From a virus, in IMG/VR virus record IMGVR_UViG_3300044800_000144, positions 1-30,626 of that record: a DNA stretch of 30,626 nucleotides. One strand, given 5' to 3'. The position numbers were made by a program, and so were the translations under genes. Numbering within the stretch: position 1 is the stretch's first letter; every line of letters starts with the position of its first letter. Below the pieces are notes generated by a model. The model was not told the origin of the DNA and made no database searches. It worked only from the letters and a program-made list of their open reading frames with translations. Shown in pieces: positions 804-24,136 of this stretch.

Positions 804-1607
804 ATGAAAATGGAAAGAACAATACCACCTGAGAATGCTCCAGAGAAAATTATCTATGCTGTTCAGGACGAACCTATTGTTATTTCAAAAGCATTGATTG
901 ATCTTTTATTAAAAGAAGATCATCCCACTGAATTAATAGCTTTATATACATTTTATTATTACACATCCAAATGGCAAAAGACAGATCAGCCCAAAGCCAC
1001 AGATAACTTCTGTGAACAAGGACTTTCTATGGGACGAGATCGCTTTACTAGAGCCAAACAAACTCTAACCCGATTAGGATTGATAGAACAAATAAGCAGT
1101 AAAGATCAATATGGTAAAATTAATGGTTGGTTTATTAGAGTCAATTTTATATGGACTAAAGATAGTGTAAAAAAAGCAATCAATGACCAGACAGTTGAAA
1201 ACAGTAGTCTGGTAGAGAAAAACCAGACAGTTGATTTCCCACTCAGTGGAAAAACAGAAATAAATGCTTTAAGTTCTAATAATATAAATGCTTTAAGTTC
1301 TAATAATAAAAAAATAAACAAAAAAGAAAAAACTTTTATACCTCCCTTATTAGAAGAAGTTGTTGAATATTTCTCAACTAAAGGATACACTAAACAAGCT
1401 GCTGAAAAAGCCTATGATTATTATTCAATTGCAAATTGGATAGATAGTAAAGGTAATCCTGTACGAAACTGGAAACAGAAAATGATTGGAAATTGGTTCA
1501 AGAATGAATATCGTATCAATGGTCATAAATTACCAGTTACTACTTCTGGTAGTCACAATTCCGGTCATATAGGAAAATTTAGACAACCCACACAAATAAT
1601 TAACTAA
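804..1607 (+). CDS. Replication initiator, winged-helix protein, 267 aa
   Basis: Probable DNA-binding replication initiator. Residues about 25-115 look like the N-terminal winged-helix domain of phage replication proteins: helices in YAVQDEPIVISKALIDLL and TELIALYTFYYY, a recognition-like helix in SMGRDRFTRAKQTLTRLGLI, then a beta wing (GKINGWFIRVNF). A low-complexity linker (about 128-178) contains a perfect tandem duplication (INALSSNN twice). The C-terminal part (about 180-245) has the helix-rich YFSTKGYTKQAAEKAYDYY and NWKQKMIGNWFKNEYR seen in DnaD-like or primosomal proteins. It is followed by a DnaC-like loader and a helicase, as lambda O is followed by P. The start MKMERTIP is shared with other genes here. 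The repeats inside it may be the origin. Confidence 0.7.
   Translation: MKMERTIPPENAPEKIIYAVQDEPIVISKALIDLLLKEDHPTELIALYTFYYYTSKWQKTDQPKATDNFCEQGLSMGRDRFTRAKQTLTRLGLIEQISSKDQYGKINGWFIRVNFIWTKDSVKKAINDQTVENSSLVEKNQTVDFPLSGKTEINALSSNNINALSSNNKKINKKEKTFIPPLLEEVVEYFSTKGYTKQAAEKAYDYYSIANWIDSKGNPVRNWKQKMIGNWFKNEYRINGHKLPVTTSGSHNSGHIGKFRQPTQIIN
1186..1234 (+). repeat. Direct and inverted ACCAGAC repeats inside the initiator gene
   Basis: ACCAGACAGTTGA occurs at 1186-1198 and again, identically, at 1222-1234, 36 bases apart. Between them GTCTGGT (1207-1213) is the reverse complement of ACCAGAC. Together with the 24-base tandem repeat that follows, these could be initiator-binding iterons. Confidence 0.6.
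1260..1307 (+). repeat. Perfect 24-base tandem repeat, candidate origin iterons
   Basis: Two identical 24-base units lie back to back (1260-1283 and 1284-1307), each with the core AAATGCTTTAAGTTCTAATA. An almost pure A/T tract follows (1308-1340), like the DNA-unwinding element of lambda-type origins, which also sit within the initiator gene. The length is a multiple of three, so the reading frame is kept and the protein gains INALSSNN twice. Confidence 0.6.
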
Positions 1608-1619
1608 AAACATTCAATT

Positions 1620-2264
1620 ATGACAAATTTAACATTTGAAGAACGTCGAGCACAAAGATTAAAAGAACAACCAGAACGAGAAGTCAAAAGTCTTCAACAT
1701 TGGAATGAGAATAATTTAAGAGATGAGCTTATAAAATTACCCCCCCGTATTAGACGTGATATAGAACATATCCCGTTTCCAGAAATAGACATTGTTAAAG
1801 GAACGTATCTTTGTGGTAAGGTAGGGTCTGGTAAAACAATACGTGCTATTTTTTTAATGTTAGCTGATTTACGTAATGGTTATGTAAAAGGGAGTAATCT
1901 AGGGTCTTATGAAGCTATATTTATTTCTGTTCCAGAATTGTTGTTTGAATTTAAACGTCTTTATTCGAACCATAATGAAACAGAAGATGGGTTAACAGAA
2001 GATGATCTAGTAAAAAAATACAGTAATATTGGTTTGTTAGTGCTTGATGATTTTGGGGTAGAAAAAACAACAGATTGGTCTTTCCAATTGCTTTATCTTA
2101 TAATCAACCGGCGTTATGAATACATGAAAAAAACTATCTTTACATCCAATTTTACCTTAGAACAATTGGCTGAAAAATTAGGAGATGATCGTTTGCCTAG
2201 TCGAATCCAGCAGATGTGTGAAATCATCCTTTTTAATAACAAAGATTATCGTTCAGGAGTATAA
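1620..2264 (+). CDS. DnaC-like helicase loader (AAA+ ATPase), 214 aa
   Basis: AAA+ ATPase of the DnaC/IstB type, which loads the replicative helicase. Walker A GKVGSGKT is at residues 66-73, Walker B with LLVLDDFG at 139-146, a sensor-1 like TSNFT at 175-179 and an arginine-finger candidate in PSRIQQM around residue 196. The length suits a phage loader with a short N-terminal helicase-binding arm. It lies between the initiator (12 bases upstream) and the helicase, whose start overlaps its stop as TAATG. The order of initiator, loader and helicase supports the assignment. Confidence 0.85.
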   Translation: MTNLTFEERRAQRLKEQPEREVKSLQHWNENNLRDELIKLPPRIRRDIEHIPFPEIDIVKGTYLCGKVGSGKTIRAIFLMLADLRNGYVKGSNLGSYEAIFISVPELLFEFKRLYSNHNETEDGLTEDDLVKKYSNIGLLVLDDFGVEKTTDWSFQLLYLIINRRYEYMKKTIFTSNFTLEQLAEKLGDDRLPSRIQQMCEIILFNNKDYRSGV

Positions 2265-3802
2265 TGGAACGTTCAATAGCAATAGGTTGTATAGCTAGTG
2301 TAGAATATCTGCAACAGATACAAAGCATCTGGGATTCCCGTTTTATAGAATCCGACAGTGCCAAGCGAATATGTCTATGGGCATGGGAATACTTTGAGGA
2401 AACCAGTAAGGCTCCCGGAAATACTATTTACGATATATTGCTTGAAAAAACAAGAACTCATAAAATATCTGAAAAGGATGCTAAGGATGTTGAAGAAATA
2501 CTTAATAGTCTAAGTAAAGACAGTTTTCAAGAAATAAATCTGGAATATTTACTCACCCAGACTAAAAAATATTTCAGATCACAACGTTTAACTATTTTGT
2601 CAGATACTATCACATCGCTGATCACCCGTGGACAAGTAGATGAAGCTGAAAAACAGGCTTGTGATTATAAACCAACAGCAAACACATCAGAGACTGATTT
2701 AGACCTGAGTAATGAAATTACACTAGACCGGGTTGAACGGGCTTTTAATATTATCAATGAACCAGTCATAACATATCCTAAACAATTAGGTAAGTTTTGG
2801 AATGATCAATTGATCAAAGGTGGGTTTGTTTCTATACTCGCTAGTGACAAGAAAGGAAAGTCATATTTCCTATTAGATATGGCAATGCGAGCTTGCCGGA
2901 ATGGTAAACGGGCATGTTTATTTCAAGCAGGAGATATGTCTGAAGCTTCTCAACTCCGACGTATTTGTATATATCTGGCACAACGGTCTGATCAGGAAAA
3001 GTATTGTGGTCAGCAATGGGAACCTGTACGAGATTGTGTATTGAATCAGATAGATGAATGTGATAATGTAGAACGGGAATCTAGTTTTGGCATCTTTGGA
3101 GGTCGGGATGAAAAAGAATTACGTAATGAGATAACCTTAGAACAACTTATTACAGCACATGAAGACACAAATAATATTGGTTATATCCCATGTCATAACT
3201 GTCGAGCATATGAAACAAACCGTCTAGGTGCAGTCTGGATTCAACGAATTAATACTGGTGATCCTCTGACAGTTAAAGAAGCTCAACGAAAAATATCTGA
3301 TTTTTTTATCACTCACAAGCGACATTTCAAACTTAGTAGTCATGCCAATGGAACATTGAGTGTACGACAGATAGAAGCAATACTGGCTGGGTGGGAAAAA
3401 CAGGATGAATTTGTACCTGATCTAATTGTTATTGATTATGCTGACTTGCTGGTAGCAGAAACTAAAGAGTTTCGTCATGGTCAGGATGAAATCTGGCGAG
3501 GTCTGCGTCGGTTATCTCAGCAAAATGGTAATCCACTGGTTGTAACAGCTACCCAGGCTGATGCAAAAGCGTATGAACGTAATAAACTTACTGCCAGTAA
3601 CTTCTCGGAAGACAAGCGCAAGCATGCCCATATAACGGCTGAATATGCTCTGAACCAAGATATTAAGGGAAGAGAAAAGAAATTAGGTATAATCCGCATC
3701 GGGGAAATAATGTTACGTGAAGGAGATTTTGAAATAGGCAATGAGGTTACTGTTTTGCAGAATTTACGTCGTGGACGACCTTTTATTTCAAGTTTCTTTT
3801 GA
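2264..3802 (+). CDS. Replicative DNA helicase, DnaB-like, 512 aa
   Basis: RecA-fold ring helicase. An N-terminal helical part (about 1-150) resembles the DnaB N domain. The ATPase core follows: Walker A is the variant ASDKKGKS (193-200), Walker B is DLIVIDYADL (386-395), the sensor motif is TATQAD (428-433), and a C-terminal LRRGRPF (501-507) fits the arginine-rich end of DnaB. Between Walker A and B lies an extra segment (about 245-320) with Cys248, Cys258, Cys266, Cys310 and Cys313, a possible zinc site that standard DnaB lacks. The start ATGGAACGT overlaps the loader stop, and the protein begins MERSI, the tag found on several other proteins here. Confidence 0.8.
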   Translation: MERSIAIGCIASVEYLQQIQSIWDSRFIESDSAKRICLWAWEYFEETSKAPGNTIYDILLEKTRTHKISEKDAKDVEEILNSLSKDSFQEINLEYLLTQTKKYFRSQRLTILSDTITSLITRGQVDEAEKQACDYKPTANTSETDLDLSNEITLDRVERAFNIINEPVITYPKQLGKFWNDQLIKGGFVSILASDKKGKSYFLLDMAMRACRNGKRACLFQAGDMSEASQLRRICIYLAQRSDQEKYCGQQWEPVRDCVLNQIDECDNVERESSFGIFGGRDEKELRNEITLEQLITAHEDTNNIGYIPCHNCRAYETNRLGAVWIQRINTGDPLTVKEAQRKISDFFITHKRHFKLSSHANGTLSVRQIEAILAGWEKQDEFVPDLIVIDYADLLVAETKEFRHGQDEIWRGLRRLSQQNGNPLVVTATQADAKAYERNKLTASNFSEDKRKHAHITAEYALNQDIKGREKKLGIIRIGEIMLREGDFEIGNEVTVLQNLRRGRPFISSFF

Positions 3803-3818
3803 ATATTAAAAAAATTAT

Positions 3819-3830
3819 TTGTATAATATA
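3819..3830 (+). promoter_or_regulatory. TTGTATAATATA element upstream of 3881
   Basis: One of seven near-identical copies of TTGTATAATA in this window. It has a perfect TATAAT (3822-3827) and lies in the 78-base gap after the helicase, 53 bases before the next ATG, so it probably drives the operon starting at 3881. It does not fit the host TAnnTTTG pattern. Confidence 0.55.
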
Positions 3831-4798: not shown

Positions 4799-5677
4799 AT
4801 GGTTTTGCTTAACACCCCAATAGAAAAATATATACATGATAATATTTCTTACTTTGTCAAACGTGAGGATTTGTCATGTAAATCACCTGGTCCACCTTTT
4901 GCAAAAATAAGAGGGTTGTATCCTCACATGAAAAAATTAAAAGCAGAAGGTGTGACAACCGTTGGTTATATGGATACTGCTATTTCTATGGCTGGATGGG
5001 GTATTTCATATTTTGCTAAGAAATTAAAAATGCAAGCGGTTATTTATTACCCTCAATACAAAAGTGGTTTTAAATATAACCAAACAGTGTTTATTAAAAA
5101 GTGGGAAAAATTTGGTGCTGTTATTTGTCCATTGGAAAAACCTAATTTGTACCAGATAAATGTTTACAGGGCAGAAAACCGGTTTAAAAAACAATATCCT
5201 GATGGTGTATGGTTGCCGAATGGTTTGAATCTCACCGAGACATTGGAAAGTGTTTGTAAAGAATCTTTTCAGACTTTTAAACAGATGCAGCCTGCAAGTA
5301 TCATTTGTTGCGTTGGTAGTGGAGTAATGCTTGCGGGCATTCTACAAGGGCTAAATAGAGTTATGGTTCGAACGAAAGAGATTAATGCAGTACTTATACA
5401 CAGGCAGGTCAATATACCCGCAAAACGCACCAAAATACTAAACCATGCTGGTTTTAAGGATTACATGTATTCCGGGTTTTTTCCTGAATATCCTTTGATT
5501 GGAAATGTTACAAATGCATTGAATATTATCAAAACTGAATATTTATACCATGAACAGGCAAGAATGAAAGCACCATTTCCATGCAACACGTATTATGATT
5601 TGAAAGCATTTGAATGGATGATTAATAATATTCATGAATTACCACAACCAATTTTGTTTTGGAATATAGGAGCTTAG
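4799..5677 (+). CDS. PLP-dependent enzyme, fold type II (lyase or desulfhydrase-like), 292 aa
   Basis: Fold-type-II pyridoxal-phosphate enzyme related to the cysteine synthase / ACC deaminase / D-cysteine desulfhydrase superfamily. VKREDL (20-25) precedes the likely PLP lysine Lys36 in GPPFAKIRGL. The substrate-loop region is MDTAISMAGWGIS (58-70), and the PLP phosphate-binding glycine loop is VGSGVMLAG (172-180). The C-terminal FPCNTYYDLKAFEWM and ILFWNIG also look conserved-type. The GGNK motif of the metabolic enzymes is replaced by GPPFAK and the usual SNH loop is absent, so the substrate probably differs. Only 3 bases separate it from a DNA methylase, which suggests work on DNA or on a precursor of a modified base. 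The reaction cannot be read from the sequence. Confidence 0.75.
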   Translation: MVLLNTPIEKYIHDNISYFVKREDLSCKSPGPPFAKIRGLYPHMKKLKAEGVTTVGYMDTAISMAGWGISYFAKKLKMQAVIYYPQYKSGFKYNQTVFIKKWEKFGAVICPLEKPNLYQINVYRAENRFKKQYPDGVWLPNGLNLTETLESVCKESFQTFKQMQPASIICCVGSGVMLAGILQGLNRVMVRTKEINAVLIHRQVNIPAKRTKILNHAGFKDYMYSGFFPEYPLIGNVTNALNIIKTEYLYHEQARMKAPFPCNTYYDLKAFEWMINNIHELPQPILFWNIGA

Positions 5678-5680: not shown

Positions 5681-6688
5681 ATGAAAATGGAACGTACAAT
5701 CCCATCGGAAACAACTGAAAAGAAAATAAAGGGGAAAAATAAAGAAAGTCTTGCTAATTCAAAAAACAGTAAAGCAAATTTCTTTTTTCGGATGGGAATT
5801 ACAAGTGTTCCAAATTCCATATTAATATATGATCGTAGTGATTCTTCCATTGATTTATCTGTCAATGAAAGATCAAGTAAAGATTTTAACAGGGACTTGG
5901 TAAATAGAACATGTTCTGACAGACAACTCCGAAATGCTTTTGGAATGAGTGGTCCAACTTGCAGAAGAAAAGATGGAGCATTATCAAAATTCCCTCAAAA
6001 TATTGGTCGTCTTTTGGTAAAATTCTTTTGTCCACAAGATGGTATAGTTTATGACCCTTTTGCCGGACATAACAGCCGGATGCAACTGACCTATGAATCC
6101 AATCGGAGTTATATAGGTGTAGATATATCACATGAATTTATGATTAAAAACCATGAAATACGAAATATACTAAAAAGTGAAAAACGACAAGGATTACTTA
6201 TTCAGAATCAGAATTTTATCCGGCTTATTGAATGCAGTTCATCAAAAGTAAAAATATTAAAAAATGATTTTGCTGATTTTACTTTAACCAGTCCGCCATA
6301 CTGGAACCTGGAATACTACGGAGATGAACTAGAACAATTAGGTAATGCTAAGACTTATGGTAAATTTATTAAACTTATTTCAGAACATGTAAAAGAAAAT
6401 TTTCGTATATTGAAACTTGGTTCATTTTGTGCCTGGTTTATAAATGATTTTATTATAGATAAGATTTTTTACCCTTACCATATTGATATTGCCCGTTTAT
6501 TTCAAGAATCTGGTTTTATATTACATAATATTTATATTGTTGATCTTGGAAGACCTTTTACTGAATCATTTATACAATCAATAATCAATACAAAATGTTT
6601 TCCGAAAAGACATGAATTCTGTATAATTGGTAAAAAACCAGGAGTTAATCAAGGTGTGGAAAATCATATTTTAAGTCTTATAGAATAA
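5681..6688 (+). CDS. DNA N4-cytosine/N6-adenine methyltransferase, 335 aa
   Basis: SAM-dependent amino-methyltransferase of the N6_N4_Mtase family. Motif IV is TSPPYW (203-208), which faces the exocyclic amino group. Motif I is DPFAGHNSR (125-133), altered from the usual DPFxGxGTT. YIGVDIS (144-150) is the acidic SAM-ribose strand. The order I then IV with an N-terminal extension of about 120 residues (FFRMGITSVPNSI and SVNERS-like segments) matches phage orphan methylases that have no restriction partner; none is seen here. It follows the PLP enzyme by 3 bases. It begins MKMERTIP, nearly the same start as the replication initiator (MKMERTIPPE versus MKMERTIPSE). Confidence 0.8.
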   Translation: MKMERTIPSETTEKKIKGKNKESLANSKNSKANFFFRMGITSVPNSILIYDRSDSSIDLSVNERSSKDFNRDLVNRTCSDRQLRNAFGMSGPTCRRKDGALSKFPQNIGRLLVKFFCPQDGIVYDPFAGHNSRMQLTYESNRSYIGVDISHEFMIKNHEIRNILKSEKRQGLLIQNQNFIRLIECSSSKVKILKNDFADFTLTSPPYWNLEYYGDELEQLGNAKTYGKFIKLISEHVKENFRILKLGSFCAWFINDFIIDKIFYPYHIDIARLFQESGFILHNIYIVDLGRPFTESFIQSIINTKCFPKRHEFCIIGKKPGVNQGVENHILSLIE

Positions 6689-7706: not shown

Positions 7707-8882
7707 ATGCAAATATTCCGGGATGATCCTATTAAAAAACAAATAGAATTACGTCAACAAATTAAAAATTCTATCACTGAATTATTGTCAGATATTTCAT
7801 TTGATAAACAAATCCGGTTTATCAATGAAATCCGGGAACATATTCATACACTTTCCCCGTTTAAAAATGAACCAGTTGATTTTGTAAAATGGGTTCCTAG
7901 TGAAAGTGTGATAGCAAATGATTATAACCCAAATAAGGTAGCACCACCGGAAATGGAATTGCTTGAGGTTAGTATAGTAAATGATGGTTATACTCAACCA
8001 ATAGTTACATGGCCAACAGAAAATAAAGCTGAAGTGATAGACGGTTTTCACCGTAATCGTGTCGGTAAAGAGTCTAAATTAGTCAAAGAAAGAATAATGG
8101 GATATTTACCAACTGTTATAATAAGAAAGGAACAGAGTGGTAAAAACGATCGTATTGCCTCTACAATACGACATAATAGAGCCAGAGGTAAACATACTAT
8201 TGATGGTATGTCAGAAATAGTTATTGAACTCAAAAATAGAAATTGGAAAAATGCCCGGATTGGAAGAGAACTTGGTATGGATGAGGATGAGATATTACGT
8301 CTTTGTCAAATTACCGGACTTGAAAGCCTATTTAAAGATGATGATTTTTCAAAATCCTGGTTAATTGAGGATTCAGATGAAGGTACAGAAATATTAACAG
8401 ATATTGTTACAGAAGAAGAAAAGGAAGAAAATGAGTTTAGAACTGTAAATACAAGTGATCCAAATCGTATATTTCACACATACGACAAATGGGAATGTTA
8501 TAGAGCAGGTTTTTATGACAGTACAAAAGAAGGTATGACAAAAGAACAATGTGAACAGGCATATTGTGATTTCCTGGCTGATGAAACCCAATTCCGGGAT
8601 GCTTTGAGTCATATCATAGTTGAATGGAAATACTCATGTGAACACTATCTGACCAATGTTTCAATGAACCGGATCGCTTATTTAGGTCAGGCTGCTTTAT
8701 GTTATGCAAAAGGCATACCAAGTACATTCCGGAGTGGATTTCATCTACTGTCAAAAGAACAACAGGAAAAAGCTAATAATATAGCATTAGAATATCTGAA
8801 CAAATGGTTACAAAATAATGGGCGTGAAGAAATTTCTATTGAAGACGGGTTGATGATAGAGAAACAGGTTGATATTTATTAG
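7707..8882 (+). CDS. ParB-like protein with C-terminal extension, IbrB-like, 391 aa
   Basis: The ParB/sulfiredoxin-fold domain spans about residues 60-165: VPSESVIANDYNPNKV, then LEVSIVNDGYTQPIVTW, the catalytic-type loop VIDGFHRNRVG (110-120), and IRHNRARGKHT. A helix-turn-helix follows (about 168-205, ARIGRELGMDEDEILRLC). An acidic linker (about 215-245) leads to a C-terminal helical domain (250-391, with EWKYSCEHYLTN and NRIAYLGQAALCYAKG). In IbrB-like proteins a ParB domain is paired with a PAPS-reductase-like IbrA, and just such a gene follows 2 bases after the stop. It is not a chromosome-partition ParB in context, since there is no ParA. It may be a DNA-binding nuclease or NTPase working with its neighbour. 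Confidence 0.75.
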   Translation: MQIFRDDPIKKQIELRQQIKNSITELLSDISFDKQIRFINEIREHIHTLSPFKNEPVDFVKWVPSESVIANDYNPNKVAPPEMELLEVSIVNDGYTQPIVTWPTENKAEVIDGFHRNRVGKESKLVKERIMGYLPTVIIRKEQSGKNDRIASTIRHNRARGKHTIDGMSEIVIELKNRNWKNARIGRELGMDEDEILRLCQITGLESLFKDDDFSKSWLIEDSDEGTEILTDIVTEEEKEENEFRTVNTSDPNRIFHTYDKWECYRAGFYDSTKEGMTKEQCEQAYCDFLADETQFRDALSHIIVEWKYSCEHYLTNVSMNRIAYLGQAALCYAKGIPSTFRSGFHLLSKEQQEKANNIALEYLNKWLQNNGREEISIEDGLMIEKQVDIY

Positions 8883-8884: not shown

Positions 8885-10126
8885 ATGAATATAAAGAAAT
8901 ATCAGACATATACTGTATTAGAGGCATCCAGAGACAGGGTTAGAAAAGTATTTGATGACTTTGAACGGATATATATATCCTTTTCTGGTGGTAAGGATAG
9001 TTCTGTAATGACACATTTGGTTTTGGAAGAAGCTATACGACGAAATAGAAAAGTAGGATTACTGATTATTGATCTTGAGGCACAATATGCTGATACAATA
9101 AAGCATGTTACAAATATGGTAAATCTTTACAAAGAAAATATTGATCTGCATTGGGCATGTATCCCTTTATTGCTTCGTAACGCAGTTACTCAATTTGAAC
9201 CCCGTTGGATTTGCTGGGATCCAGATAAAAAAGATATTTGGGTACGAGATATGCCAAAAGAAGCAAAAACTGAAAAAGATTACCCATTTTTTATTCCCCG
9301 AATGGAATTTGAAGAGTTTATGGTTTTGTTTGGAGAATGGTACGGACAAGATAAATTAACTGCTGGATTCATTGGTATTCGTTGTGATGAAAGTTTACAT
9401 AGGTATTGTGCCATTGCCCGGACTAAAATAGGGCTAACATATAAAAATTACAGGTGGACAACAAAAGTTGCAAAAAATTTGTATAATATATATCCTATTT
9501 ATGATTGGCGAACTGAGGATATTTGGGTATTTCACGGTAAATATCCTAATAAAATACATAATAAAATATATGATAAAATGAATATGGCTGGTGTTAAGTT
9601 AAGTCAACAACGGTTATGTCAGCCATATGGGGATGATCAGAAAAAAGGATTATGGTTATATCATATTCTTGAACCTGAAACATGGTATAAATTAATTGCC
9701 AGGGTAAATGGTGCAAATTCTGGTGCTTTATATATTCAGGAACATGGTAATATCAATGGGTATTACAAAATTACAAAACCAGAAGGTCATACATGGGAAA
9801 GTTTTTGTAATCTACTTTTAAGGACTTTGCCAAAGAAAACAAGGGATCACTACATATTCCGGTTTAAAAAATTCATTTCTGGTTGGCATGACCGGGGATA
9901 TGAAAAGATACCAGAAGAAGTGCCGGAAGAACTTGAAGCAAAATGCTGGGCTCCATCCTGGCGTCGGATGTGCAAAGTTATTTTACGTAATGATTATTGG
10001 TGCAAGGGACTCGGTCAGACTCAACCTAAATCAGATGCTTATTGGGAATTCAAAGAAATAAAAAAGAAACGAGCATTAGAAAAGAATCAAAAAATAGAAT
10101 CAGAAACAGTAACATTATTTGAATGA
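8885..10126 (+). CDS. PAPS-reductase-like PP-loop protein, DUF3440 / IbrA-like, 413 aa
   Basis: PP-loop ATP pyrophosphatase related to phosphoadenosine-phosphosulfate reductase and DndC. The ATP-binding loop is FSGGKDSSV (33-41). GIRCDESLHRY and YPIYDWRTEDIW correspond to downstream PAPS-reductase elements. The C-terminal third (about 250-395) fits the DUF3440 domain of IbrA, with RLCQPYGDDQKKGLW, CWAPSWRRMCKVIL and NDYWCKGLG. These Cys residues may bind a metal cluster or carry sulfur. It is paired with the ParB-like gene upstream, and the nuclease gene overlaps its end by 4 bases. Sulfur transfer to DNA or RNA is a reasonable guess from DndC. Assimilatory sulfate reduction is unlikely, since no other gene of that pathway is here. 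Confidence 0.8.
   Translation: MNIKKYQTYTVLEASRDRVRKVFDDFERIYISFSGGKDSSVMTHLVLEEAIRRNRKVGLLIIDLEAQYADTIKHVTNMVNLYKENIDLHWACIPLLLRNAVTQFEPRWICWDPDKKDIWVRDMPKEAKTEKDYPFFIPRMEFEEFMVLFGEWYGQDKLTAGFIGIRCDESLHRYCAIARTKIGLTYKNYRWTTKVAKNLYNIYPIYDWRTEDIWVFHGKYPNKIHNKIYDKMNMAGVKLSQQRLCQPYGDDQKKGLWLYHILEPETWYKLIARVNGANSGALYIQEHGNINGYYKITKPEGHTWESFCNLLLRTLPKKTRDHYIFRFKKFISGWHDRGYEKIPEEVPEELEAKCWAPSWRRMCKVILRNDYWCKGLGQTQPKSDAYWEFKEIKKKRALEKNQKIESETVTLFE
9479..9490 (+). promoter_or_regulatory. TTGTATAATATA copy inside the PP-loop gene
   Basis: The full 12-base element occurs within the coding sequence (it encodes NLYNIY). It could be an internal promoter for the downstream nuclease and polymerase genes, or chance in an AT-rich gene. 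Confidence 0.3.
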
Positions 10127-10668
10127 TAAAAAAACCCGCTGTAACACAGTTAATTGCTTTACTAGATAAACCTGCATTACTGAGATGGGCAAATCAGATA
10201 GGTTTGCAAGGTATTGAACTAGATAAATATCGTAAACAGTCAATGTCTACCGGTACGGATTTACACAACCAGATTAAAGAAAATATACAAAACAAAATAC
10301 CTTTTAAAGATATTCAGGTTCAACAAAACTGGGATCATTTTATTGCAGATAAACATATAATTGCTTCTGAAAAGGATATTGAAACTGAATGGTATAAGGG
10401 ACGGTTAGATATAAAACTATTTTATAATGGTTATACATATATCTGTGATTTTAAAAGTCAATCATCTGTATATCTTGAAACAATACTCCAATTGACAGCA
10501 TATCGTATGGCAGTAAACCATAGTGAATTTACTAAAATTGCAGTCATTGAAATTCCTGTATTCCGTTTGATCCCTATTGAAATAATTAATTTTGAACCAT
10601 ATGAAGAAATATTAAAATCACTTTACTCTATTTACAAGTGTAAACAACAAATACAGGTGATTAAATGA
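10123..10668 (+). CDS. PD-(D/E)XK nuclease, Cas4/RecB-like, 181 aa
   Basis: Single-domain nuclease of the RecB/Cas4 exonuclease class. GTDLHNQI (44-51) is the N-terminal metal-binding region. YKGRLDI (91-97) supplies the first acidic residue, Asp96. YICDFKSQ (107-113) is the (D/E)XK motif with Asp109 and Lys111, and QLTAYRMA (123-130) is the conserved QxxxY motif. No Fe-S cysteine cluster is present, unlike full Cas4. It starts within the stop of the PP-loop gene (ATGA), and its own stop overlaps the UDG/exonuclease start. Likely roles are end processing in recombination or host DNA breakdown. Confidence 0.75.
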   Translation: MIKKPAVTQLIALLDKPALLRWANQIGLQGIELDKYRKQSMSTGTDLHNQIKENIQNKIPFKDIQVQQNWDHFIADKHIIASEKDIETEWYKGRLDIKLFYNGYTYICDFKSQSSVYLETILQLTAYRMAVNHSEFTKIAVIEIPVFRLIPIEIINFEPYEEILKSLYSIYKCKQQIQVIK

Positions 10669-11888
10669 AACCCTTCTTTAATACTCAACAGACAACATCC
10701 GTTTCACGTCCAGATGGTAAGGGACGTTCCTGCATCAGCTGTGGTCTGTATAAAGATGTCATCACACCTCATATGAAACCGTATGGTAATTTCAAAAAGA
10801 AAATACTAAATATAGCAGAAGCACCTGGATTAGAAGAAGATCAGGCAGGACGACCATTCCAAGGCAAAACCGGACAACTCCTGCAACGTACTTATAAAAA
10901 ACTAGGTATTGATCTGTTTGAGGACTGTCTGAATATTAATAGTTGCTTATGCAGACCCACGGATAGCAAAGGTAATAATCGTACACCAACGAATCAGGAA
11001 ATAGAAAATTGCCGTCACACTGTTTTACAATTAATCAAGGACGTCCAGCCACACGTCATTGTATTACTAGGTGGTTCTGCTCTGTATAGCTTGCTGGGTC
11101 ACCGATGGCGTAAAAACCTGGGTGGTATCAGTAAGTGGCGGGGATACACTATACCAGACCGGGATTTCAATGCCTGGTTATGCCCTACGTTCCACCCCAG
11201 TTATATTGAACGTAGTGACACGGGTGGTGTGGAAGAAGTCATCTGGTTACAGGACTTGCGTCAGATGGTAGATTGCATTGACACACCACTGCCTGTATAT
11301 AAAGAACCTGTTATTGAAGTAATACAGGATTTATCAGTACTGAATAATATAAATAGTGGTCGGGTGGCATTTGACTTCGAGACAACTTCTTTAAAACCAC
11401 ACGCCTGCGGACACCGAATTGTTTGTTGTGCAGTGGCAGACACCCCTGATCATGCCTGGGTGTTTATGATGCCTGATACTCGTAGAGAACGTCAACCACT
11501 AGTCAATCTGTTAGCAAACCCAAATGTAGGTAAAATGGCCCACAATATGAAGTTTGAACAGGCATGGAGCGTGGTACGGTTAAACCAAGGTGTTGAAAAC
11601 TGGCTTTGGGATAGCATGCTAGCATCTCACATATTAGATAATCGTACTGGAATAACAAATCTGAAATTCCAAACATACGTAAATTTCGGAATCGTGGACT
11701 ATGCAAGTTCTATTGCCTCATACTTAGAGGGAGATGATACGAATGCTAATTCATTTAACAAAGTTCTAGATTTGATAAAAACACAAGATGGAAAAGATCA
11801 GTTATTACATTACTGTGGATTAGATGCTATATATGAAAGGAGATTAGCCGAAAAACAAATGGAATTGATTGGAGTATTACCATTCTAA
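10665..11888 (+). CDS. Uracil-DNA glycosylase (family 4-like) fused to Pol I-type 3'-5' exonuclease, 407 aa
   Basis: Two domains. Residues about 20-205 are a family 4-type uracil-DNA glycosylase: Fe-S cysteines Cys23, Cys26, Cys96 and Cys116, motif A EAPGLEED (52-59) followed by GRPFQGKTGQLL, and motif B HPSY (177-180). Residues about 230-400 are a DnaQ-like proofreading exonuclease: Exo I DFET (237-240), Exo II HNMKFE (293-298), Exo III YCGLD (383-387). Such fusions normally continue into a family A polymerase domain. Here the frame ends at 11888 just after Exo III, and the polymerase domain is a separate gene at 14143. Repair and proofreading are thus on one chain and synthesis on another. 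Confidence 0.85.
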   Translation: MKPFFNTQQTTSVSRPDGKGRSCISCGLYKDVITPHMKPYGNFKKKILNIAEAPGLEEDQAGRPFQGKTGQLLQRTYKKLGIDLFEDCLNINSCLCRPTDSKGNNRTPTNQEIENCRHTVLQLIKDVQPHVIVLLGGSALYSLLGHRWRKNLGGISKWRGYTIPDRDFNAWLCPTFHPSYIERSDTGGVEEVIWLQDLRQMVDCIDTPLPVYKEPVIEVIQDLSVLNNINSGRVAFDFETTSLKPHACGHRIVCCAVADTPDHAWVFMMPDTRRERQPLVNLLANPNVGKMAHNMKFEQAWSVVRLNQGVENWLWDSMLASHILDNRTGITNLKFQTYVNFGIVDYASSIASYLEGDDTNANSFNKVLDLIKTQDGKDQLLHYCGLDAIYERRLAEKQMELIGVLPF

Positions 11889-14153: not shown

Positions 14154-15573
14154 TCCCAAAACAAAAGAAGCATACAATCTGCTACACGAAGGAATTTTGG
14201 CACTTTCACGGGCTGAACAAGTTGGCATACGTGTAGATTTACCATATATTGAACACCAGAAGGTTATTTTGACCCGTAAGATTAACCGTCTGGAAAATGA
14301 GTTTAAAGAAACCAACTTTTTTAAACACTGGGAGCATAGCACCAACGGTAAGGTCAATATCAATAGTGATCAACAGTTAGCTCACTTCCTGTACAGGGTA
14401 AAAAAACTTAAACCACCCAAGTTCACTACTAATGGTCAGGGGTCAGTGGATGAAGACTCACTCAAGCAGTTGAACATACCCGAACTGAATATATTGCTGG
14501 AATGTGGTAAGATTAAACGCCTGAGAGATGTCAACCTAGACGGGTTTGCCCGTGAACAGGTTGATGGTTATATTCATCCGATGTTCAACTTACATCTTGT
14601 AAAAACTTATAGATCAAGCAGTTCCAATCCCAACTTCCAAAATATTCCAATTCGAGATGAAGAATCTATGCAGGTAGTACGTCAGGCGTTGTATGCTCGT
14701 CCAGGTCATCAGTTAATGGAAATTGATACATCTGGTATGGAAGTACGTATTGCTGCAACATATCATAAAGACCCTACCATGTTAAAATATATCAGAAATC
14801 CAAAGTCAGATATGCATGGGGATATGGCAAAGCAAATCTATCTATTAGATAAATTAGATAAAGACATACCATCCCATAAAGTATTACGCTATGGTGCTAA
14901 GAACGGTTTTGTATTTCCTGAATTTTATGGTGACTATTATAAAAATTGTGCTATTGGGCTTTGTGATTGGGGGGAATTACCACAGGGACGTTGGCATGAG
15001 GGGGAAGGTATTGAAATGCCACAAGGTACTTTATCAGATCATCTAATTTCTAAAGGTTTAAAAGAATTTGGTGAGATTAAAAAAGTAGGTAACAAAATTA
15101 TTGTAACAGGATTCTTGAAACACATACAGGATATTGAATATGATTTTTGGAATAATCGCTTTCCGGTTTATGCAGAATGGAAAAATCGTTGGTGGCGAGC
15201 ATATTTACGTAATGGTTATTTTGATTTATCAACAGGTTTTCGCTGTAGAGGAATAATGAATCTTAAAGAAGTAATAAATTATCCCGTACAAGGTGCCGCA
15301 TTTCATTGTCTGCTGTGGGGATTTATTGAAGTTGATAAAACAGCTATAAAAGAACATTGGGATAGCCGATTAGTAGGACAGATACATGATTCACTCGTAC
15401 TTGACGTTCTTTCATCAGAAGCTGAATACATTTATAAAACAATCCGTAGAATAATGTGTGAAGAATTACCTGCTGCATGGGATTGGATCAACGTCCCAAT
15501 AGACATAGACTGTGAAATATCTCCGGTAGATAGTTCATGGGCTGAAAAACAAAAATTTGAATTAAAAAATTAA
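14143..15573 (+). CDS. DNA polymerase family A, polymerase domain only, 476 aa
   Basis: Replicative polymerase domain of the Pol I type, without exonuclease. Template-contact segment TYRSSSSNPNFQNIPIR lies at 155-171. Motif A is MEIDTSGMEVRIAA (192-205), where Asp195 is the metal ligand of the usual DYSQIELR. Motif B (O-helix) is RYGAKNGFVFPEFYG (249-263) with Arg249 and Lys253. Motif C is GQIHDSL (412-418) with His415-Asp416. The first 130 residues form the thumb-like part. The missing 3'-5' exonuclease is encoded at 10665-11888 with a glycosylase, and 2.25 kb of other genes separate the two. The ATG overlaps the upstream stop. Confidence 0.9.
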   Translation: MTINPKTKEAYNLLHEGILALSRAEQVGIRVDLPYIEHQKVILTRKINRLENEFKETNFFKHWEHSTNGKVNINSDQQLAHFLYRVKKLKPPKFTTNGQGSVDEDSLKQLNIPELNILLECGKIKRLRDVNLDGFAREQVDGYIHPMFNLHLVKTYRSSSSNPNFQNIPIRDEESMQVVRQALYARPGHQLMEIDTSGMEVRIAATYHKDPTMLKYIRNPKSDMHGDMAKQIYLLDKLDKDIPSHKVLRYGAKNGFVFPEFYGDYYKNCAIGLCDWGELPQGRWHEGEGIEMPQGTLSDHLISKGLKEFGEIKKVGNKIIVTGFLKHIQDIEYDFWNNRFPVYAEWKNRWWRAYLRNGYFDLSTGFRCRGIMNLKEVINYPVQGAAFHCLLWGFIEVDKTAIKEHWDSRLVGQIHDSLVLDVLSSEAEYIYKTIRRIMCEELPAAWDWINVPIDIDCEISPVDSSWAEKQKFELKN

Positions 15574-16889: not shown

Positions 16890-16901
16890 TTGTATAATAA
16901 T
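16890..16901 (+). promoter_or_regulatory. TTGTATAATAAT element upstream of 16917
   Basis: TATAAT lies at 16893-16898, 18 bases before the ATG at 16917. The leader continues TAAAAACACGTTTGCT, and TTTGCT also precedes the ATG at 3881. It probably drives the genes from 16917 through the ssDNA-binding protein. Confidence 0.55.
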
Positions 16902-16916
16902 AAAAACACGTTTGCT

Positions 16917-17396
16917 ATGGATTATGAAAAGGATATAGAAATAGACGAAAGTGCTATTGATTTAGGATGTTTTGAACAACCTAGATTAATGTTAAAGGTT
17001 ACAAGACTTGAAGCAGAACTTGAAAAAGCTGAAGATGAAGCTAAAGAAAGGCAAAATTTAATTAAAGCCGATATTGATAAAGAAATTCGTTCTGATCCTG
17101 AAAAGTTTGGGATTGAAAAAATCACAGAAGCTGCTGTTACCAGTGCTATACTTTCTGACAAGCGTTATAAACAGGCAAGCACAGAATATATAAATGCTAA
17201 ATTTGAATCAAAATGTGCAACAGGGGCTGTTAAATCTTTTGAGCATCGTAAAAATATGCTTGAAACGTTAGCAAAACTCCATGGACAGAGTTATTTTGCT
17301 GGACCAGCTATACCCCATGATTTATCAAAATTCCGTCAGGAGAGGCAAAAGAAAGTTGATACTGGTGTTTCTAATAAAATACAACGCACAAGATAA
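16917..17396 (+). CDS. Coiled-coil protein, possible recombination mediator (UvsY-like), 159 aa
   Basis: The start is placed at the ATG 16917 because the open frame before it only contains the promoter element. Residues about 20-60 form a coiled coil rich in Glu, Lys and Leu. The central part reads DPEKFGIEKITEAAVTSAI followed by a second helix pair and LHGQSYFAGPAIPHDLS. I have the impression of similar small proteins beside phage ssDNA-binding proteins, sometimes predicted as UvsY-like mediators, but cannot verify it here. The neighbours (SSB at 17553, RecA/UvsX at 19234) fit such a role. It overlaps the next small gene by one base (TAATG). Confidence 0.6.
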   Translation: MDYEKDIEIDESAIDLGCFEQPRLMLKVTRLEAELEKAEDEAKERQNLIKADIDKEIRSDPEKFGIEKITEAAVTSAILSDKRYKQASTEYINAKFESKCATGAVKSFEHRKNMLETLAKLHGQSYFAGPAIPHDLSKFRQERQKKVDTGVSNKIQRTR

Positions 17397-18875: not shown

Positions 18876-19234
18876 TGGTTATACTCAAGACACATACTAA
18901 AAGAGAACCATATAAGTACATTGGGGTATTTCTGCCCCAATGGGTACATGAGTACTTTGCTTTATACACGCTGGCTAAAGGTGAAAGTAAATCAACAGTG
19001 ATACGACGTTTATTTGAGGAGTGGATCACTAATCAACACACCACCTCAGCGGATAGTAATGACGCTAAATTGATCAGCGAAATTATACAAACGATCAAAC
19101 TTCAATGGAAGTTGGAACGAGTCACTCATCCTAACATTATGCTTAGTGTGTATAAAGCTAATGTGAAAGCAGAATTAACCAGCAGAGGGATTAATTCACA
19201 ATATATTGAAACCATACTAAAGGAACTTGAGTGA
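18875..19234 (+). CDS. Probable ribbon-helix-helix protein, 119 aa
   Basis: Residues about 12-52 fit a ribbon-helix-helix fold: strand KYIGVFLP, helix QWVHEYFALYTLAKG, then ESKSTVIRRLFEEWI, as in CopG/Arc-type DNA-binding proteins. The remaining half is helical (ISEIIQTIKLQWKLE, NVKAELTSRGI) with no known motif. It shares one base with the SSB stop, and its own stop overlaps the RecA start (TGATG), so it is translated with the recombination genes. It could regulate this operon or bind DNA in replication. Confidence 0.55.
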   Translation: MVILKTHTKREPYKYIGVFLPQWVHEYFALYTLAKGESKSTVIRRLFEEWITNQHTTSADSNDAKLISEIIQTIKLQWKLERVTHPNIMLSVYKANVKAELTSRGINSQYIETILKELE

Positions 19235-20301
19235 TGAAAATGGAACGTACCATTAAAGCAGAAGAACCACTCAGCACTCAGATGAAACGTCGGGTCACTG
19301 CCAACGTGGAACGTAAGTCCAAGCCAGAATATGATGGGGATTTTGGCAAAGTTATTAGTACAGGTTCAACGTTACTTGATCTGGCTATCAGTGGTGGTCG
19401 GGTGCATGGCGGGGGTTTGCCCGGTGGTATATTTGTTGAAGCATTTGGGCCAACCGGGAGTGGTAAGACTGTTTTGTTATCAGAGATTGCCGGAGCTGTT
19501 CAACGTCAGGGTGGAGATGTGTTGTTTCATGACCCAGAGGCTAGGTTGAATAAACAGTTTGCTCAAATGTTTGGTCTTAAAATTAAAGACGAAAACTATA
19601 AAAAACCAGCTACTGTACCAGAAGTTTTTAAAGCTGTTCGGGCATGGGAACCAGAAGGTAAATCAAAAGTCGTACATGGTATATTTGCAGACTCCCTAGC
19701 TGCTCTTTCTACTACTACAGAAATGGACAATGAGGAAGGGGACAAAATGGGAATGCGTCGTGCCAAGGAGTTTAGTCAGGAGTTGCGTCAAACGTGTCGC
19801 CTGATCACTGAAAAGAACTATTTAATGGTTTGCAGTAATCAGGTACGTATAAATGTAGACGCTGGTCAGTACGGTCAAAAATACACAACCCCTGGTGGAG
19901 AATCTGTCGGATTTTATGCCAGTTTGCGATTACGATTTAACCGAGCAGAGAAAATTAAACTTAAAAAGCGAATTGCTGGTAAGGAAGAAAGTCGGGTAAT
20001 TGGTGTGGAGGCTTGTATTGAAGTGTTTAAAAGTTCAATATGGAAACCATTTCATACTGCTCCTGTAACAATACTTTTTTCCTATGGCATAGATTCAATC
20101 CGGGATGAACTGCAATTTATTAAAGATCACACTAAAAACACCACTTATTGTGTATCCAATATCAGTTTGTCTAATAGTATTGAAGAAGCCATTAAGATTG
20201 TTGAAACAGATAAATTAGAAACTACTTTAAAAGAAGAAGTGATTAATTTGTGGGAACATATAGAAAGTCAATTTGAACAGGAACGTAAACCCAAAAGATG
20301 A
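19234..20301 (+). CDS. RecA/UvsX-like recombinase, 355 aa
   Basis: Strand-exchange ATPase. Walker A is GPTGSGKT (72-79), preceded by the RecA-type STGSTLLDLAISGG and GGLPGGIFVEAFG. A Walker B-like strand is GIFADSLAAL. The DNA-binding loop region is SNQVRINVDAGQYGQ with TTPGGESVGFYASLRLRF, matching the TPGGxALKFYASVR motif of RecA. The length is near that of bacterial RecA. The ATG at 19234 is preferred over the GTG at 19231, as it gives MKMERTI, the N-terminus shared with the initiator and methylase. SSB, RuvC and SbcCD genes are near. Confidence 0.85.
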   Translation: MKMERTIKAEEPLSTQMKRRVTANVERKSKPEYDGDFGKVISTGSTLLDLAISGGRVHGGGLPGGIFVEAFGPTGSGKTVLLSEIAGAVQRQGGDVLFHDPEARLNKQFAQMFGLKIKDENYKKPATVPEVFKAVRAWEPEGKSKVVHGIFADSLAALSTTTEMDNEEGDKMGMRRAKEFSQELRQTCRLITEKNYLMVCSNQVRINVDAGQYGQKYTTPGGESVGFYASLRLRFNRAEKIKLKKRIAGKEESRVIGVEACIEVFKSSIWKPFHTAPVTILFSYGIDSIRDELQFIKDHTKNTTYCVSNISLSNSIEEAIKIVETDKLETTLKEEVINLWEHIESQFEQERKPKR

Positions 20302-20492
20302 TGAAACCCGGAGATATAGTAATGATATTCGCAAGTCCAGTTAAACAGGAACATCCAATAGATCAGGCAAAATTGATTGAGAAGAAACGAGATTTACCAA
20401 GAGGTCTTGAAGAATGGTGGGTTGAATATACCAATGATCCTGATAAACAGTATGTAGTTATACTAAAAAATGATGATGGAACGCACGAATGA
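20298..20492 (+). CDS. Hypothetical protein, 64 aa
   Basis: Small protein starting MMKPGDIVMIFASPVKQEHPI, suggestive of a short beta-barrel (KOW or Tudor-like), with WWVEYTNDPDKQYVVILK forming later strands. Not recognised. The start overlaps the recombinase stop, and its end overlaps the resolvase start by more than 15 bases, so it is embedded in the recombination operon. Confidence 0.6.
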   Translation: MMKPGDIVMIFASPVKQEHPIDQAKLIEKKRDLPRGLEEWWVEYTNDPDKQYVVILKNDDGTHE

Positions 20493-21015
20493 ACCAAGGA
20501 TATTGACTAATGATCCTAGTTTTACTGCCTGGGGTTGGGCTATCCTGAGTAGCAATGGTAGAGTCTTTAGAACAGGTTGTATTAAAACTGCTCCTGAACA
20601 AAAGAAACGTCGTATACGTACTTCGGACGACCGAACACGTCGGACGAGTGAGATTGTACAAACATTGCTGAAGTTGATAAAAGATCATAATATAACATAT
20701 ATACTGAGTGAATCTCCACATGGTTCACAGAATGCCAGTGCAGCAGTAATGATCGGTATTGTAACGGGTATTACCACTACAATATCGGAATGCCTGAATA
20801 TCCCAATAGAATATTATTCTGAACAGGATGCCAAGAAAGCTGTACTGAATAAAAAAGCAGCTACCAAAGAAGATATGATTAATGCTATTGATAAACTCTA
20901 TGCCGTAAATTGGCGAGGTGTTAAATACATAGATGAAGCAGTGGCTGATGCCCTTGCTATTCATTACGTAGCTAGCAGGGAAAGTCCAACATTACGTTTA
21001 TTTAAAAATCAATAA
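20470..21015 (+). CDS. RuvC-like Holliday junction resolvase, 181 aa
   Basis: RNase H-fold nuclease of the RuvC family, which resolves branched DNA before packaging. Acidic residues, numbered from the first ATG: Asp15 in ILTNDPSFTAWGWAI, Glu81 in ILSESPHGSQNASA, Asp155 or Glu156 and Asp160 in IDEAVADALAIHY. Three ATG codons stand in a row (20470, 20473, 20476). The last gives MERTNEP and matches the ATGGAACG starts of other genes here, so it may be the true start. The gene lies just after the recombinase. Confidence 0.75.
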   Translation: MMMERTNEPRILTNDPSFTAWGWAILSSNGRVFRTGCIKTAPEQKKRRIRTSDDRTRRTSEIVQTLLKLIKDHNITYILSESPHGSQNASAAVMIGIVTGITTTISECLNIPIEYYSEQDAKKAVLNKKAATKEDMINAIDKLYAVNWRGVKYIDEAVADALAIHYVASRESPTLRLFKNQ

Positions 21016-21644: not shown

Positions 21645-21649
21645 AAACT

Positions 21650-21766: not shown

Positions 21767-21767
21767 T

Positions 21768-21992
21768 ATGAGAAATTTAAAAAACTTTAATCATTGGATT
21801 GCTGAAATAAGGCAATTGGCAATAGAATTTCCGGTAAAAGATATTGATGAGGATGGGATTACATCAAATATTTCAAAATTAGGCATTAAAAGAATCTTTA
21901 ATAAATCATCATTTACCGATGAATTTAGAGATGGGTTAACACCGCAAGAAGCTTTTGATAATGAAATGGATGCTTGGAAAGATTCCTTATAA
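21768..21992 (+). CDS. Hypothetical protein, 74 aa
   Basis: Small soluble, acidic protein (MRNLKNFNHWIAEIRQLAIE, ending NEMDAWKDSL). It has helix-forming segments and no known motif. It starts 1 base after the preceding stop and ends 9 bases before the SbcC N-terminal gene, so it is probably co-transcribed with it. Function unknown. Confidence 0.55.
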   Translation: MRNLKNFNHWIAEIRQLAIEFPVKDIDEDGITSNISKLGIKRIFNKSSFTDEFRDGLTPQEAFDNEMDAWKDSL

Positions 21993-22001
21993 ACTATTAA
22001 T

Positions 22002-23051
22002 ATGATACAATCGCTCGAACTTTGCAACTTCGAAAGTTACCGGCATTCCAAATTAGAATTCGTACCGGGCGTAAATATCGTCGTTGGTGCCACAGATGCA
22101 GGTAAGACAGCCATTATGCGAGCATTTCGCTGGTGCATAAACAATCGTCCTAATGGTAGTGATTTTGTTAGTTGGGAAGGGGTTAATGATGAAGGAGACA
22201 CTCAGGTTATAATAACCACAGACACTGATACTATCACCCGTAGCAAAGGAAAAATTGAGCTTTATAAAGTCAACAAACTTGAACTTAAAGCATTCAATAA
22301 AGATGTACCGTCGGAAGTCAGTCAGGCATTGAATTTGTCAGAGATAAATATCAAAAGTCAGTTCGAATCACATTTTCTGCTCAGTAAAACATCAGGAGAA
22401 GTAGCTAGTTTTTTCAATAAGATTGCCCGATTGGACATTATTGATACTGCAACTAACAATGTCAACCGATGGATCAATGAAATTAAACAGGACATTGCTA
22501 GTAAGAACCGACTGATTGAAGAGAACCAGATTAAATTAAAAACATTTGATTACCTTACTGAGTTTGAAACTGAAGTTGAAACCCTGGAAGATGCAGAAAT
22601 TGATCTGAGAGAAATGCAATCACAATATGATCAACTCAATAAACTGTTAACAGATATTGATCGGGTTAATGCTGCTATTGAACAGGAACAACTCATGGTG
22701 CAAAGTGAAACGTTGATTAACAGTATTCTGGATGATTATAACCAACGTCGAGCACTCCAGACAAAACACGATAATTTAACCGTGTTACTGAATGAAATAG
22801 ATGACATTCAGCGTCAATCAGACGAATTTCAACAGTTGTTAGGTTGTGAAACGTTAATTAATGAACTGTTAAAACTTTATAAGGAACGGGCTATTGCTGA
22901 AACAGAACACATCAAGTTATCCCGGTTGTTGCATAATATAAGTGGTACAGAAACTCAGTTGAAACAGGCAGAAACCCGTTACAATGCTTTACATAAACAG
23001 TTTGAGGATGAATTTCCATCAGTATGCCCTTTGTGTGGTAAACCAAAATAA
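22002..23051 (+). CDS. SbcC/Rad50-like ATPase, N-terminal half ending at the zinc hook, 349 aa
   Basis: N-terminal half of a Rad50/gp46-type ATPase. The start IQSLELCNFESYRHSKLEF is typical, Walker A is GATDAGKT (29-36) and a Q-loop candidate is Gln120 in KSQFESHF. A long coiled coil runs from about residue 170 to 335. The chain then ends abruptly with CPLCGKPK (342-349), the CxxC zinc hook that normally lies at the coiled-coil apex in the middle of the protein. The Walker B half is encoded at 25067. The nuclease partner SbcD is at 23240. So the ATPase must assemble from two or more chains. Confidence 0.85.
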   Translation: MIQSLELCNFESYRHSKLEFVPGVNIVVGATDAGKTAIMRAFRWCINNRPNGSDFVSWEGVNDEGDTQVIITTDTDTITRSKGKIELYKVNKLELKAFNKDVPSEVSQALNLSEINIKSQFESHFLLSKTSGEVASFFNKIARLDIIDTATNNVNRWINEIKQDIASKNRLIEENQIKLKTFDYLTEFETEVETLEDAEIDLREMQSQYDQLNKLLTDIDRVNAAIEQEQLMVQSETLINSILDDYNQRRALQTKHDNLTVLLNEIDDIQRQSDEFQQLLGCETLINELLKLYKERAIAETEHIKLSRLLHNISGTETQLKQAETRYNALHKQFEDEFPSVCPLCGKPK

Positions 23052-23057
23052 AGAATT

Positions 23058-23240
23058 ATGGATAATAATTTTGATTTTATAAAAAAGGTTGCTCTTCGTT
23101 TAAAAAATGAAGAAATAGATAAAATGTCAGAAGAACAAAAAACAAGAATTATAGAGATTGATTCTGAAATTAATGAAATTGAAGAAAAAGAAAGTTATAT
23201 GCAATATATATTGGATTTATTAGAAAAATATATGTTTTAA
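23058..23240 (+). CDS. Small coiled-coil protein, 60 aa
   Basis: Charged helical protein (KKVALRLKNEEIDKMSEEQK, then IDSEINEIEEKESYMQYIL) with the heptad pattern of a coiled coil. It lies between the SbcC N-terminal half and SbcD, and its stop overlaps the SbcD start as TAATG. It may contribute to the split SbcC complex or be independent. No family recognised. Confidence 0.5.
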   Translation: MDNNFDFIKKVALRLKNEEIDKMSEEQKTRIIEIDSEINEIEEKESYMQYILDLLEKYMF

Positions 23241-24136
23241 TGGAACGTTCTAAACTAAATAAAATCCCAACATTAATTTGCTCTGCCGATTGGCACCTAA
23301 GAGAGGATACCCCTGTGGCAAGAACGGATGATTACTGGGTAGAACAATGGCGAAAGGTTGATTTTATTTCTGACTTACAAAAGAAATATCATTGCCCTGT
23401 AATATTATCTGGAGATATGTACGATCATTGGAAACCTTCACCAAACCTGTTGCGAGAAACTATATTACATATACCAGATCAATTAATGGTTTGTTACGGG
23501 CAACATGACCTACCAGCACATTCGCTGGATTTAGTAAACAAGTGTGGGATAAATGTTTTAGAAGCTGCAAAAAAATTAACTGTTTTACCAGAATGTCACT
23601 GGAATCAATTTCCAAAAGAAGGTAGTTTATATTTACCTAATTATGATTGTCATATTCTAGTCTGGCACGTTATGAATTATCAAGGTAAATTGCCGTGGCC
23701 AAATTGCCCATCACCATTATCAGGAGCAATACTTAGAAAGTACCCTCAATTCCCATTGATCATAACCGGTGATAACCATAAAAGTTTTTCAGAATCGTTT
23801 GAAGGACGTTGGCTCATTAACCCCGGTTCGTTAATGCGTATGGATGCTGACCAGATTGACCACCGACCTTGTGTATATCTATGGTTCGCAGAAGATAACA
23901 CTATAGAACAAGTATTTATACCCATTAAGCAGGGAGTGATCAGCCGGGAGCATCTGGAACGTGAAGCAGAACGGGACGGTCGTATTGATGCTTTTGTAAG
24001 CCGTCTGGATGATGACTGGGAAGCTGCGTTGTCGTTTGAACAAAATGTTGAAACTTTTAAACAGACTAATCAGGTTAGGATAAGTGTAATGGATATTGTT
24101 TACCGGAGTATGGAGAAAGTAAAATTAGTATTATGA
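23240..24136 (+). CDS. SbcD/Mre11-like nuclease, 298 aa
   Basis: Metallophosphoesterase that works with the SbcC/Rad50 ATPase in DNA end and hairpin processing (T4 gp47 type). Metal-binding motifs in order: DWH (17-19), GDMYDHW (58-64), GQHD (87-90, in place of GNHD), His143 in VWHVM, and GDNH (177-180), followed by NPGS (194-197). A C-terminal region (about 225-298) is the ATPase-binding part. The start ATGGAACGT overlaps the upstream stop and gives MERSK, the tag also seen on the helicase (MERSI). The SUF-like overlap with the DUF2493 gene (ATGA) points to coupled translation. Confidence 0.85.
   Translation: MERSKLNKIPTLICSADWHLREDTPVARTDDYWVEQWRKVDFISDLQKKYHCPVILSGDMYDHWKPSPNLLRETILHIPDQLMVCYGQHDLPAHSLDLVNKCGINVLEAAKKLTVLPECHWNQFPKEGSLYLPNYDCHILVWHVMNYQGKLPWPNCPSPLSGAILRKYPQFPLIITGDNHKSFSESFEGRWLINPGSLMRMDADQIDHRPCVYLWFAEDNTIEQVFIPIKQGVISREHLEREAERDGRIDAFVSRLDDDWEAALSFEQNVETFKQTNQVRISVMDIVYRSMEKVKLVL

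Follow-up and report, generated by a model that had tools for sequence, protein, structure and literature searches.

Short linear motifs can gather unrelated DNA enzymes at one hub, as do the C-terminal tip (DDDIPF) of the bacterial single-stranded DNA-binding protein (SSB) and the clamp-binding motifs. Here we analyze an N-terminal peptide, M-[E/K/Q]-R-T-[K/R], that is shared by recombination enzymes with unrelated folds, both in a virus fragment of 30.6 kb (IMG/VR record IMGVR_UViG_3300044800_000144, positions 1 to 30,626; hereafter the window) and in some 130 contigs of related, uncultivated phages. This tag is basic, N-terminal and located on the clients, unlike the SSB tip and the clamp motifs, which lie at the C-terminus or within the protein and are acidic or hydrophobic. 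Phage T4 provides the closest described systems. The acidic C-terminal A-domain of T4 gp32 recruits UvsX, UvsY, Dda and gp59, a precedent for a recombination hub (PMC3016280). The phage group of the window carries a T4-like recombination module, with a gp32-fold SSB that has acidic linkers, a UvsX-like recombinase, Mre11/Rad50 and, in some members, endonuclease VII. Unlike the enzymes studied here, the T4 partners are not described as having a common N-terminal peptide in the available part of that source (PMC3016280), and contact between the tag and SSB is a putative one. T4 gp32 itself bears the LAST motif, Lys-Arg-Lys-Ser-Thr at residues 3-7, which docks on the SSB core (PMC12893549). LAST resembles the tag as a short, basic, Ser/Thr-containing peptide at an N-terminus, but it lies on SSB itself and serves cooperative binding, whereas the SSBs of this phage group are untagged (0/132). 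In addition, the basic residues of LAST are interchangeable, whereas Arg3 of the tag is invariant (113 starts) and position 2 is often Glu. A third precedent is the T4 capsid targeting sequence, which is conserved on otherwise diverse internal proteins (PMC3012670). Its carriers are internal proteins of the virion, from which the prohead protease removes it. It shares with the tag its presence on diverse phage proteins, but the carriers here are recombination enzymes, and nothing points to their being packaged or cleaved. We do not claim that the tag belongs to the capsid targeting sequences or to the LAST motifs, and none of the known short shared peptides that we compared is this peptide on these enzymes.

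A sequence-only reading had noted that six unrelated DNA-metabolism proteins of the window start alike, with M(K)MER[T/S]. All six N-termini, encoded on the plus strand, are present exactly as read: MKMERTIPPE at 804, MERSIAIG at 2264, MKMERTIPSE at 5681, MKMERTIKAE at 19234, MMMERTNEP at 20470 and MERSKLNK at 23240. The codon differences among them also hold (Arg AGA, CGT or CGC; Thr ACA, ACC or ACG; Ile ATA, ATC or ATT). In relatives the ATG of MER itself is the start codon, so the leading MK or MM of the window starts probably represents upstream codons outside the peptide. The firm carriers are the RecA/UvsX-like recombinase (19234-20301, PF00154; tag MERT at 19240..19251), the RuvC-like resolvase (20470-21015, PF02075; MERT at 20476..20487) and the SbcD/Mre11-like nuclease (23240-24136, Mre11/SbcD fold by AlphaFold plus Foldseek; MERS at 23240..23251).

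We compared the N-termini of orthologues in the related phages. A RecA profile gave about 100 loci and an SbcD profile added more; both scans used protein-internal patterns, so N-termini were unselected, although the first single-sequence RecA scan did have the peptide MKMERTIK among its patterns. The strict tag, M[EKQ]RT, starts 58/132 RecA, 31/79 RuvC of the window family and 43/103 SbcD proteins, and a relaxed form is present on 97/132 RecA. Scrambled orders of the tag residues occur in 5 RecA, 0 RuvC and 1 SbcD (tags with Arg5 fit a relaxed reversed-motif control, which was therefore dropped). Multiplying the position frequencies seen in 1,564 other genes gives M[EKQ]RT a chance of p = 0.001 per start. 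Among the distinct sequences of the first data set, 37/82 RecA, 18/52 RuvC and 23/55 SbcD carried the tag, as compared to 0.14, 0.08 and 0.07 expected, an enrichment of P < 1e-37 in each family. The strict tag was found on none of the SSB (0/132), SbcC (0/119), UvsY-like (0/116), clamp loader, clamp, Rad50C, UDG-exonuclease/polymerase or RHH proteins (36-132 members each). The peptide is thus kept on orthologues in related phages and concentrated in a few DNA-metabolism genes, so neither of the two conditions under which the sequence-only reading would have failed applies.

The resolvase locus shows what the tag follows. One Holliday-junction nuclease gene sits between RecA and SbcC, and its occupant is the window-family RuvC at 66 loci, a PD-(D/E)XK enzyme (PF24608/RusA-like PHROG 244) at 13, a second RuvC family, RuvC(b), at 10, the third RuvC-like resolvase (PHROG 1770) at 7 and endonuclease VII (PF02945) at 5; eight loci have none. 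These occupants are mutually exclusive, two never being found together. Every slot family has strictly tagged members: 31/79 of the window-family RuvC, 4/12 of RuvC(b), 4/8 of the PHROG 1770 resolvases, 6/15 of the PD-(D/E)XK enzymes and 3/5 of endonuclease VII. Because the tagged enzymes span three unrelated folds, common ancestry cannot account for the tag across them. Judged from these sequences, the tag goes with the role of the enzyme rather than its fold, and it behaves as though re-acquired even after an enzyme has been exchanged for an unrelated one.

Selection acts on the peptide and not on the nucleotides, as had been proposed from the six window starts. The 84 strict tags use 40 different codon triplets, and their Arg codons are AGA in 47% and CGN in 40%, whereas AGA makes up 57% of Arg codons at the early positions of other genes; the tag is therefore less A-biased than ordinary starts. 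The variety of codons and the way they are used rule out an artefact of A-rich gene starts. In 113/113 M[EKQ]xT[KR] starts the third residue is Arg, never Lys. Among M[EKQ]Rx[KR] starts, position 4 is Thr in 113, Ile in 7, Val in 5 and Ser in 4. In slot-gene starts the gap between Met and Arg-Thr is exactly one residue 169 times, whereas gaps of 0, 2, 3, 4 and 5 residues occur 6, 19, 12, 11 and 2 times. From this register and these residue counts, the motif is anchored at the N-terminus and Arg-specific, with Thr or another beta-branched residue preferred at position 4. About half of the tags have Glu at position 2, and positions 5-6 are mostly basic. The shared start is thus real, but 'MER' was too narrow a description, as the core is M-x-R-T-[K/R] with E, K or Q at position 2.

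The tag is also gained and lost often. Across 128 phages placed on a RecA tree, tag state changed at least 22 times for RecA, at least 32 times for the resolvase and at least 26 times for SbcD, as is typical of a linear motif that evolves easily and is selected for again and again. Within genomes, tags co-occur for the pairs RecA-SbcD (Fisher p = 0.002) and resolvase-SbcD (p = 0.004), and residue 2 agrees between RecA and SbcD tags in 20/21 cases (p = 5e-5).

The best reading of the peptide is that of a docking tag, and we put the probability that it is a docking motif of some kind at roughly 0.55. The features of a generic short linear docking motif are present: disorder, occurrence on unrelated folds, and repeated gain and loss. 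In an otherwise confident AlphaFold model of SbcD, tag residues 1-3 fall below pLDDT 50. In RuvC the tag lies directly ahead of the first core strand, in SbcD it likewise comes before that strand, and in RecA it precedes a variable spacer. We propose that one partner protein, whose existence we infer, would recognise the free N-terminus together with Arg3-Thr4 and would gather the recombinase, the Holliday-junction nuclease and the SbcD nuclease at the same DNA sites, to which the replication initiator or a methylase might sometimes be brought as well. The partner could be the gp32-like SSB of the phage (17553..18875, plus strand; AlphaFold model, Foldseek to T4/RB69 gp32 prob 1.00), acting through its acidic linker or its C-terminal domains. 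This protein has an OB core, a small helical domain, a conserved C-terminal Cys4 knuckle and acidic disordered linkers, which join two small distal domains. It leads the candidates because recombination proteins converge on gp32 in T4 and because its own linkers are acidic and disordered; even so, by this analogy SSB is only a tentative, rather improbable choice of reader. The clamp and the UvsY-like mediator are alternative candidates. An RHH protein encoded upstream of RecA (at 18875 in the window) was tested as reader by presence and absence; it accompanies 61/72 tagged and 19/28 untagged phages, a distribution that says nothing for or against it.

Several observations weigh against a docking tag read by one hub. 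The co-occurrence of tags is not significant once corrected for the tree, and the RecA-resolvase pair shows none. The agreement at residue 2 of RecA and SbcD is inseparable from relatedness, with only 1-3 independent pairs, and we do not claim it as covariation. In many phages the tag is missing from one or more of RecA, the resolvase and SbcD, and it is not essential everywhere; it is also found on some homing endonucleases and small proteins. Among conserved families, charge covariation with tag residue 2 singles out no protein above background. The Cys knuckle of SSB was rejected as a tag-specific reader because untagged relatives have it too. Conversely, two phages (L067 and L105) are tagged, yet no knuckle was found within their SSB or immediately behind it.

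The main rival is a DNA-binding arm, in which the N-terminal amine, Arg3 and Lys5 would grip DNA, for example at branches or in the minor groove, and raise affinity. Most identified carriers do bind DNA (RecA, the resolvases, SbcD, the methylases, the initiator, GIY-YIG nucleases and the terminase small subunit), and the basic residues at positions 5-6 would suit such an arm. However, Glu at position 2 in about half of the tags and the lack of any Lys at position 3 are odd for a generic basic arm, which also would not need a strict Met-x-Arg register, and other DNA binders (SSB, polymerase, clamp loader and SbcC) are never tagged. We consider this explanation unlikely, although it is the strongest of the competing ones. 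It is clearly less probable still that the first amino acids tune expression, setting translation or early elongation and making no contact in the mature protein. The tag does occupy codons 2-5 in an A-rich context (0.60 A in codons 2-6 as compared to 0.47 in other genes), and position 2 is almost always a NAR codon (K, E or Q). Against this, the Arg and Thr codons of the tag are no richer in A than the early codons of other genes, the tag is specific to roles and not to operon position, and SSB, presumably abundant, never has it.

About equally improbable is a degron or adaptor site that would place the recombination enzymes under the control of a host or phage protease. Short N-terminal signals of this kind are known in the ClpXP N-motifs, but the tag is stricter than those motifs, Met is expected to stay before E, K or Q, and no observation made here suggests a protease. 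We hold it very unlikely that the peptide loads enzymes into the capsid for injection. In T4, a conserved targeting sequence does mark internal proteins that are otherwise diverse (PMC3012670), but the tag here sits on recombination enzymes, which should work during replication and are not internal defence proteins, and no cleavage site was seen. Least probable of all is a nucleotide-level element, such as a translational operator or promoter-like site, or chance. The tag sits at the translation start, as such an element would, but 40 codon triplets among 84 tags, scrambled motifs numbering 0-5 and the enrichment in each main family leave it hardly any room. A RegA-type RNA operator, which the sequence-only reading had already thought less likely, is effectively excluded by the same codon variety and by Arg and Thr codon use like that of other early codons.

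The remaining three window starts differ in standing. The methylase, RuvC, helicase, RecA and SbcD assignments hold, but the 'initiator' is a likely replication protein only. This putative replication initiator or organiser (804-1607) is HTH-type, matches a PHROG of unknown function and precedes a DnaC-like loader and the DnaB-like helicase. Its MERT is at 810..821, with the ATG at 810 probably the true start. Two relatives have tagged proteins in that position, MQRTK on a DnaD-like protein (L050:410) and MKRTH (L047:6072), so the window protein likely belongs to the tagged set. The MERT of the N6/N4 DNA methylase (5681-6688, PF01555; tag at 5687..5698) appears sporadic: in the same phage group, the tag is missing from three methylases at 44-50% identity with readable N-termini, whereas one of those phages (L139) has a sibling methylase that starts MQRTK. 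The DnaB-like helicase (2264-3802; MERS at 2264..2275) is a doubtful carrier and probably has no tag. Its orthologues start MIERKILIG, MIERKIIIG, MIERRLITG and MAEEFIERRIITG, with FIERRIITG among the forms seen at that place, so ER belongs to the helicase family's own N-terminus; it is kept irrespective of the tag, with the one exception of the nearest relative, which has SEILIITG there.

Tagged starts were also seen in other families. A terminase small subunit, a packaging protein, starts MERTRRK (L037:10480-11127, minus strand), and its homologue in another phage starts MARRRKK. A family of unknown function (about 230 aa; L050:9837, L061:122, L075:535 and L105:2035) has the strict tag in 3/4 members and MERKK in the fourth; sequence searches of Pfam, PHROG and PDB gave no match for it. 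Two other shared termini occur in the phage group. The UDG plus 3'-5' exonuclease protein (10665..11888, plus strand; PF03167, PF01612) has an MxxFF start, at 10665-10680 in the window, that is found in 29/41 family members, and two members of an unrelated small family also start so (MKPFF, L038:10750; MKSFF, L080:940). This start resembles the N-terminal PIP box of UNG2 and, by that likeness, could serve as another docking motif, conceivably one that binds the clamp. The SSBs of three phages (L028, L074 and L077) end in DDIPF, like the bacterial SSB tip, after the conserved Cys4 knuckle (CPxGHxFGxD..CDxCxxWDxC), possibly a route to recruiting host SSB partners.

The left 27 kb of the window is devoted to DNA metabolism, encoding the replication protein, DnaC-like loader, DnaB-like helicase, methylase, a clamp-like protein (at 6714), UDG-exonuclease, DNA polymerase A, clamp loader (at 15598), gp32-like SSB, RecA, RuvC, a split SbcC/Rad50 and SbcD. 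A conserved coiled protein at 16890..17396 (plus strand; PHROG of unknown function) is UvsY-like, as judged by position and style. The N-terminal lobe of SbcC/Rad50, the partner of SbcD, lies at 22002..23051 (plus strand; PF13476) and ends at the zinc-hook half CPLCG; in 104/119 members of this family the CxxC half-hook is close to the C-terminus. A separate coiled-coil protein (24677-24913) and a separate C-lobe (25067-25693) follow, so that the split gene flanks SbcD. Polymerase A is split as well, into the UDG-exonuclease protein and a polymerase domain at 14143-15573, with a GIY-YIG-like gene, a short C5-methylase-like gene and other short genes between. The polymerase reading frames of L021 and L023 have intein-like ends (HNFFANEICVHN) ahead of a conserved motif. 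A PLP-dependent enzyme (4799-5677) adjoins the methylase, and a ParB-like gene (7707-8882) is paired with a PAPS-reductase/DUF3440 gene (8885-10126); both sets perhaps have a role in DNA modification or sulfur metabolism. The phage of the window had no close cultivated relative in a collection of 50,697 phage records. Megablast with 25 kb of the window gave no match to cultivated phages, its SSB and RuvC had no protein match among them, and all matches of its RecA, SbcD, PolA and UDG were distant. Metagenome-assembled genome bins that hold related phage contigs hint weakly at hosts such as Ignavibacteriales and Bacteroidota; further bins belong to other phyla.

We found no published description of the peptide in the open-access literature. 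Taking the docking tag further, we give about even odds to a clade-wide N-terminal 'address code', a free Met-x-Arg-Thr-Lys that one phage hub protein would read and that enzymes would acquire on taking up a role, so that recognition of the tag, and not pairwise contacts, would build the recombination centre. Such a code would account for the exchange of resolvases of unrelated fold with recruitment kept. It would also offer a sequence handle by which to find more components of the recombination centre, several of the tagged proteins being of unknown function. If the peptide is a docking code, these phages would have a modular, tag-based replication and recombination hub.

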